Position numbers and translations under genes: made by a program. 34,858 nucleotides of DNA from Bacteroidales bacterium (GTDB lineage Bacteria > Bacteroidota > Bacteroidia > Bacteroidales > F082), in the NCBI GenBank assembly GCA_018399335.1, contig JAGYNM010000011.1, positions 1-34,858 of the forward strand. Reading direction: 5' to 3'. The notes below the pieces were generated by a model. The model did no database searches and was not told the DNA's origin. It was given only the letters and a program-made list of their open reading frames with translations. This document shows positions 17,794 through 19,521 of the stretch, in pieces (the first letter of the stretch is position 1; every line of letters starts with the position of its first letter).

Positions 17794-18330
17794 ATGAGCA
17801 TTATCCGTGTGCACGATAAAGAATTTGACTTGTATATTCCTCAGGATCAAATTGAAAGGGCTATCAAAAAGGTTGCCGATCAGCTCAATCGTGATATGGC
17901 CGGTAAAAATCCATTGTTTTTGGTGGTTTTAAATGGAGCATTTATGTTTGCGGCTGAGCTGTTTAAACATCTTGAAATAGAATGTGAGATTTCATTTGTG
18001 AAGCTGTCTTCCTACCTGGGAACAAGCTCTACTCATGTAGTGCGCGAATTGATTGGGCTCGATCATTCCGTTCATGGCCGGAATATTGTTTTGGTAGAGG
18101 ATATTGTTGATACAGGTTTAACGCTGAGATACACCATTGATAAGCTTATCAAACTTGAAGCGAATGATGTAAAAATCGCCACCATGCTATTCAAACCAAA
18201 AGCATTCAAATACGATTACGAAGTGGATTATGTAGGCATCGAAATTCCAAACGATTTCATTATAGGTTATGGACTCGATTATAACGAACATGCCCGCAAC
18301 TTACCTGATATTTACAAAGTGATTTCATAA
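17794..18330 (+). CDS. hpt: Hypoxanthine phosphoribosyltransferase
   Basis: LVVLNGAFMFAAELFKHL, PRPP motif VLVEDIVDTGLTL, VDYVGIEIPNDFIIGYGLDYNEHARNLPDIYKV. Confidence 0.95.
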   Translation: MSIIRVHDKEFDLYIPQDQIERAIKKVADQLNRDMAGKNPLFLVVLNGAFMFAAELFKHLEIECEISFVKLSSYLGTSSTHVVRELIGLDHSVHGRNIVLVEDIVDTGLTLRYTIDKLIKLEANDVKIATMLFKPKAFKYDYEVDYVGIEIPNDFIIGYGLDYNEHARNLPDIYKVIS

Positions 18331-18348: not shown

Positions 18349-19521
18349 ATGCTGAATATTGCATTATTTGGCCCTCCCGGAGCCGGGAAAGGAACCCAAA
18401 GTAAACTGTTGCTCGAAAAGTATAACCTTACGTATATCTCCACCGGCGATATTTTGAGGGAAGAAATTTCCAACAAAACCCCACTGGGCATAGAAGCGAA
18501 AGGGATTATTGAGAAAGGAGGCCTTGTGCCTGACGATCTCATTGTTCAAATTATAGAGAAAAGAGTAACGATGAACCTGAACACTGCCGGTATTTTGTTC
18601 GATGGTTTTCCGCGTACTGTGGTTCAGGCATACATTCTTGAAGGTTTACTTTCGAAGATGAACACTAGCCTTACTTGTATGCTCAGTCTAGAAGTACCTA
18701 AAGACGAACTTATTAGCCGCATGCTCGAACGTGCAAAAATTGGTGGCAGAGCTGATGATACCATGGACGTTATAAAGGTCAGGCTCGATGAATATGAAAA
18801 CAAAACCAAGCCGGTAATAGAGTTCTATAAAGAGAAGAATAAGTATTTTCCGATTGATGGAGTTGGCTCGGTGAACACGATTTTTAATAACCTTATCGAG
18901 ACCATCGAAGGAACCATGAAACAGGATTTCTTCAATGTGGTTTTGCTTGGCAAACCCGGATCAGGAAAAGGAACCCAGGGCGAACTTCTGGCACGAAAAC
19001 ATAACCTTGTTTATATCAGTACCGGAAAGCTTTTGCGAAAAGAAATTGCAGGGAACACAGATATTGGTCAAATTGCCAAGCCTTATATGGAACGTGGTGA
19101 AATTGTTCCGGATGAAATAGCCATTCGCCTGATTGAGAAAAAAATACACCATCATCCCACGGCTGCTGGCTTTGTTTTTAAAGGTTTCCCGCGCACCGTT
19201 GTTCAGGCCTACATTTTGGACGGGCTGCTCAGAAGAATTAACTCCAGGGTGTCGTGCATGCTTAACCTTAAGCTTTCGACACTTGATGCAATCAAGCGAC
19301 TGAACGACAGGGGCAAGACCGACAGGAGACGGCTCTATGATGTGTCTACAGATTTGATACTTAATCGTTTGGATGAATATGAAAAGAAAACCAAACCGGT
19401 TATCGAGTATTATAAAAAGCAGACAATCTTTTTTGAGGTAGATGGCTCCGGAGATGAGAATCAGGTGAATGAAAGGTTGGAGGATGCTATGATAAAAGCC
19501 GTGAAACAACTCAGAGGATAG
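18349..19521 (+). CDS. adk: Tandem double adenylate kinase: N-terminal canonical domain, C-terminal degenerate domain
   Basis: Domain 1 (~18349-18915): GPPGAGKGTQ, STGDILREE, DGFPRTVVQA, GRADD. Domain 2 (~18916-19521): GKPGSGKGTQ, STGKLLRKE, KGFPRTVVQA, RRRLYD. One uninterrupted 390-aa ORF. Confidence 0.93.
   Translation: MLNIALFGPPGAGKGTQSKLLLEKYNLTYISTGDILREEISNKTPLGIEAKGIIEKGGLVPDDLIVQIIEKRVTMNLNTAGILFDGFPRTVVQAYILEGLLSKMNTSLTCMLSLEVPKDELISRMLERAKIGGRADDTMDVIKVRLDEYENKTKPVIEFYKEKNKYFPIDGVGSVNTIFNNLIETIEGTMKQDFFNVVLLGKPGSGKGTQGELLARKHNLVYISTGKLLRKEIAGNTDIGQIAKPYMERGEIVPDEIAIRLIEKKIHHHPTAAGFVFKGFPRTVVQAYILDGLLRRINSRVSCMLNLKLSTLDAIKRLNDRGKTDRRRLYDVSTDLILNRLDEYEKKTKPVIEYYKKQTIFFEVDGSGDENQVNERLEDAMIKAVKQLRG

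Follow-up and report, generated by a model that had tools for sequence, protein, structure and literature searches.

What is a second adenylate kinase (Adk) domain kept for when it is fused in frame to an intact one and its own catalytic motifs are altered? The window analysed here, a stretch of 34,858 nucleotides from a Bacteroidales bacterium, raises this question through a tandem gene at 18349..19521 of the forward strand, in which the family label 'adenylate kinase' masks an altered C half. We compared this gene with its counterparts in relatives, residue by residue and locus by locus.

Two halves of one open reading frame

The gene starts with ATG and encodes a product of 390 aa (stop included) without internal stop. 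Pfam ADK (PF00406) matches this product twice, with 166.3 and 142.8 bits against a cutoff of 26.8, and both matches span profile positions 1–150 of 151, so the continuous frame with two full-length Adk-like halves described in the original prediction stands. The N and C halves are 48% identical across 184 aa (E 1e-62). An assembly artefact or frame error is excluded, as the two-domain architecture was seen again in 168 ORFs from relatives, which reduce to 136 non-redundant tandems at 97% identity. These include the window's own class (class I, 90 C halves) and a second, paralogous class (class II, 42 C halves).

The N half (18349..18912, forward strand) is a short-lid Adk domain with a complete catalytic residue set. 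It scores 220.8 bits against NF001381 (cutoff 187), and it has the family score and every motif of the bacterial short-lid Adk (NF001381, TIGR01351, PF00406). The P-loop Lys, TGD, LR, DGFPRT, GRxDD and lid arginines are all present in the ORF; by codon, the residues are K14, D34, R37, D85, R89, R128, R134, D136 and R145. The motifs of an active enzyme had been predicted for this half, and the catalytic residues are likewise intact in all relatives, with K13, R36, D84, R88, Q92, R119, R123 and R167 (E. coli numbering) retained in 136/136 N halves.

Ordinary bacterial short-lid Adks are single-domain, whereas the tandem adds a fused and altered second domain. This C half (18913..19518, forward strand; ADK 142.8 bits) is clearly of the same family descent, and its standing as an Adk-derived pseudo-domain is well supported by the sequence comparisons below. 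Against curated equivalog models it scores 180.3 bits for NF001381 (cutoff 187), 163.3 for TIGR01351 (cutoff 168) and 155.5 for NF011100 (cutoff 154). By codon it has K207, R230, R282, R317, R321, R328, D331 and R340, with lysine or tyrosine at the N-half Asp positions. As had been predicted from TGK for TGD and KGFPRT for DGFPRT, Lys227 (AAG, 19027..19029, forward strand) replaces Asp33, and Lys278 (AAA, 19180..19182, forward strand) stands at the position of D85 and replaces the catalytic Walker B residue, Asp84 in E. coli numbering. Tyr330 (TAT, 19336..19338, forward strand), at the position of D136, replaces lid Asp158. The C half therefore lacks both the Walker B Asp (DGFPR) and the lid GRxDD of an active Adk. 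The lid reading 'RRRLYD for GRxDD' was right about the first Asp, which is now Tyr; the alignment R328-x-Y330-D331, in a lid with two additional residues, shows that the Arg and the second Asp are retained.

Spread, origin and selection

In a protein search of 60 relatives, most genomes from the same family gave two-domain matches, and many also carry a second two-domain protein, 45–51% identical. Several genera of the family carry a single-domain Adk, and hence some lineages can do without the C half. Across the order, the tandem is present in about 59 of 247 sampled genomes (about 24%), this number being the sum of 58 genomes counted by hand with C-half matches >250 bits and one more (G092) checked separately. 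The tandem is rare outside the order: it was found in four further genomes of the class, all of one family, and in seven more genomes of the phylum. Named carriers are Marinifilum, Labilibaculum, Draconibacterium and Lentimicrobiaceae records; NCBI taxonomy places Marinifilum in Marinilabiliales and Lentimicrobiaceae in Bacteroidales, both within Bacteroidia. Viruses gave nine distant Adk-like matches only (29–37% identity).

In a tree of halves, the C halves form a single clade (SH-aLRT 98), which makes one ancient internal duplication likely. A constrained tree with all N halves together was not rejected and fitted better than the free tree. Class II groups inside the N part of the tree as well as inside its C part, so the duplication preceded the gene copy. 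The internal duplication favoured in the original prediction agrees with these trees; the tree and the similarity between the halves lead us to prefer it to a fusion of distant paralogs.

Both halves are under strong purifying selection. Within the genus and within class II, dN/dS is about 0.01–0.07 for both halves wherever dS is unsaturated, and the C-half value, at about 0.02–0.07, equals that of the N half; the C half is thus not decaying. N and C distances also correlate (r 0.70), a value reached by 0 of 1000 permutations.

Five single-domain Adks of sister genera (L051, L053–L056) deserve separate mention. A first tree hinted at secondary loss of their C half, but the tree that unites all N halves has the better fit, and a search downstream of these genes gave no clear C-half remnant, only one weak match on the opposite strand (E 0.008). 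These genera may have lost the C half or may never have had it.

Residues kept and lost in the C half

The homolog search bore out the view of half 2 as a conserved pseudo-domain with motif losses shared by proteins of the same architecture. Among the 136 non-redundant tandems, position 84 of the C half is Lys in 133, Asp in two and Thr in one. The Asp33 equivalent is variable and non-Asp in 134/136, and Tyr stands in place of the first lid Asp in 131/132 (89/90 in class I and 42/42 in class II). We also screened for columns in which 85% or more of the C halves agree on a residue that differs from the usual one of N halves and single-domain Adks; only positions 84 and 158 in this screen replace an otherwise near-invariant Asp. 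A full ADK domain of 142.8 bits, with the P-loop Lys and the Args present, might suggest that the C half is an ordinary but slower Adk that doubles the enzyme; however, the losses at positions 84, 158 and 33 make this reading very improbable. The C half has kept the fold and lost a catalytic residue, and the loss is maintained by selection, which is the pattern of a pseudoenzyme at the level of sequence.

A loss of Arg positions had been claimed as well, and this part does not hold for the window's class. Class I C halves retain K13, R36, R119, R123, R167 and Q92 in 90/90, R156 in 89/90 and R88 in 84/90. Over both classes and the remaining C halves, R119, R123, R167 and Q92 are retained in 136/136, and R88, the Arg for AMP phosphate, is replaced in some (5 Ser, 1 Lys, 1 Ile and 1 His of 136). 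Class II has gone further: K13 is Arg in 41 of its 42 C halves, nearly all have lost R36 and most have Met for R156, with Lys84 (41/42) and Tyr158 (42/42) retained. On these residues, the class II tandem is more decayed than that of the window. Two early-branching C halves (L168, L176) retain Asp84 and have lost R88 (to Ile or Ser); they possibly represent an earlier stage of decay.

The same residues bear on whether the C half could be an enzyme with altered chemistry, in which Lys in place of the Mg2+-linked Asp serves another substrate or a Mg2+-free transfer or removal of phosphate. Class I retains the P-loop Lys and all phosphate-binding Args, and the replacement is one fixed residue rather than random ones, which speaks for such an enzyme. 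However, every single-domain and N-half Adk in the comparison has Asp84, and class II lost the Walker Lys and a lid Arg but kept Lys84, unlike a catalytic site under selection. We consider altered chemistry unlikely, though better placed than a slower Adk.

AlphaFold2 gave two confident Adk folds for the tandem protein (mean pLDDT 88) with a pTM of 0.54, so that the relative placement of the halves is unsure and there is no confident interface. Foldseek matched the model to the usual Adks and to a multi-domain axonemal chain, 9fqr_G8 (Adenylate kinase 8). A candidate inter-domain surface comes from the helix after Walker B, VVQAYILEGLLSK in the N half (18619..18657, forward strand) and VVQAYILDGLLRR in its C-half counterpart (19198..19236, forward strand). 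This helix reads YILxGL in almost all N halves and all C halves (YIL.G in 136/136 C halves), the last Leu of C halves being sometimes Ile or Met. The five nearest single-domain Adks (L051, L053–L056) also carry YIL.G, whereas the other 24 have mostly charged or small residues (E/A/K) at this patch. In PMC9599734, partners of P-loop NTPases are described as usually contacting the stretch just after the Walker B Asp. Since the helix is near-invariant in tandems and lies at this docking site, it is possibly a contact between the halves.

Such a surface would also suit a purely structural C half, once a subunit of a homodimer and now fused to the N half, which would stabilise its partner without sensing a ligand and keep its active-site residues for folding. 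The presence of YIL.G in N halves, in C halves and in the five closest single-domain Adks is consistent with an older dimer surface, and class II C halves are under purifying selection in spite of lacking the Walker Lys and the AMP-site Arg. This explanation does not readily account for the AMP-site and phosphate-binding residues of class I, which are kept almost without fail over long divergence and beyond what folding alone should call for, and the model provides no confident interface for it. We regard a purely structural role as possible but rather doubtful, and clearly ahead of altered chemistry.

The account that we favour, at about an even chance of being correct as a whole, is that the gene would be a Bacteroidales-like bacterium's housekeeping adk, enlarged by a single ancient in-frame duplication, with a C half that is catalytically dead, still binds nucleotide in the window's class and is a partner of the active N half. 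The N half, which retains the full catalytic set, would catalyse. The C half, whose catalytic death is read from motifs, would no longer transfer phosphate. D84 helps hold Mg2+-ATP in Adk, and Lys278 would occupy the place of this Mg2+-holding acid. With the P-loop, AMP pocket and arginines intact, the class I C half is predicted to still bind adenine nucleotide; in class II binding is probably weakened too, and mainly the partner role would be left. The C half would then be a built-in partner whose action regulates or stabilises the N half, possibly through the YILxGL helices of both halves. Weighing against this account are the C halves with a replaced R88, the two that retain Asp84, the unsure domain orientation in the model and the genera of the family that live with a single-domain Adk. 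In short, the C half probably controls or props up the N half rather than catalysing.

Adenylate kinase supply and gene neighbourhood

A PF00406 search of 23 relatives that are 91–99% complete gave, in every one of them, either exactly two domains from one tandem gene or four from two such genes, and nothing else. No further ADK-family gene was found in the window, as had been predicted, and no second one was found in the rest of its own assembly (77% complete). The N half thus appears to be the only plausible source of the cell's Adk activity. Four loci of other genomes (L201, L203, L168, L183) have a separate single-domain adk-like ORF on the same stretch as the tandem; at R88, the C halves of L201 and L203 have Ser and that of L168 has Ile.

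The gene for hypoxanthine phosphoribosyltransferase, hpt (17794..18330, forward strand; TIGR01203, 166.7 bits), lies 18 bases upstream of the tandem gene and is separate from the fusion. It directly precedes the class I tandem in 67/90 loci, and a gene that we take to be Obg-like from our own reading of its sequence often lies downstream; class II loci have no widely shared neighbour gene. The original prediction proposed a special coupling of half 2 to hpt. This is not supported, as single-domain adk has the same neighbour: hpt is just upstream at 17 of 22 such loci and fused to adk in one. The adjacency is therefore an ancestral gene order and says nothing particular about the C half. Two other genomes of the order encode Hpt and Adk in one ORF with Pribosyltran and ADK domains (L071:1989-3119 and L197:1589-2740, both forward strand); in these fusions too Adk is joined to a partner, but the partner is Hpt and not a second Adk. 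A further ORF of 354 aa (L198:1845-2906, reverse strand) has ADK at residues 169–328 after about 165 N-terminal residues without Pfam match.

More than one Adk domain per chain is familiar from eukaryotes. AK5 is a eukaryotic multi-domain adenylate kinase. AK8 (9fqr) has several domains as well. In PMC2680645, multi-domain Adks are treated as already known in eukaryotes, and a sea urchin sperm flagellar Adk is cited with triplicated catalytic domains. These eukaryotic proteins belong to a different lineage, and their similarity to the tandem is much lower. The flagellar domains are described as catalytic, whereas one half of the tandem studied here carries Lys in place of Asp as a fixed change. 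In the open-licence papers searched, we found no description of a bacterial tandem Adk fusion with an inactive half. Pseudoenzyme partner domains are known elsewhere, one example being dead protein-kinase domains with a regulatory role towards an active one. They likewise place a dead and an active homologous domain on one chain, but fold and chemistry differ.

Adk serves as a model in studies of catalysis and protein motion and is usually treated as one self-sufficient domain. More tentatively than the favoured account, and a little ahead of the purely structural role, the C half may be a built-in adenine-nucleotide sensor, which would bind without Mg2+-dependent catalysis and set the activity of the cell's only Adk allosterically. 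If this is true, the enzyme, which normally passes for a self-sufficient single domain, exists in a regulated form in these Bacteroidota. The tandem also lets one ask how a pseudoenzyme emerges after duplication. Moreover, with a natural and widespread fusion of the sole Adk to a conserved inactive twin at hand, one can ask whether adenylate balance in bacteria is regulated through Adk itself.
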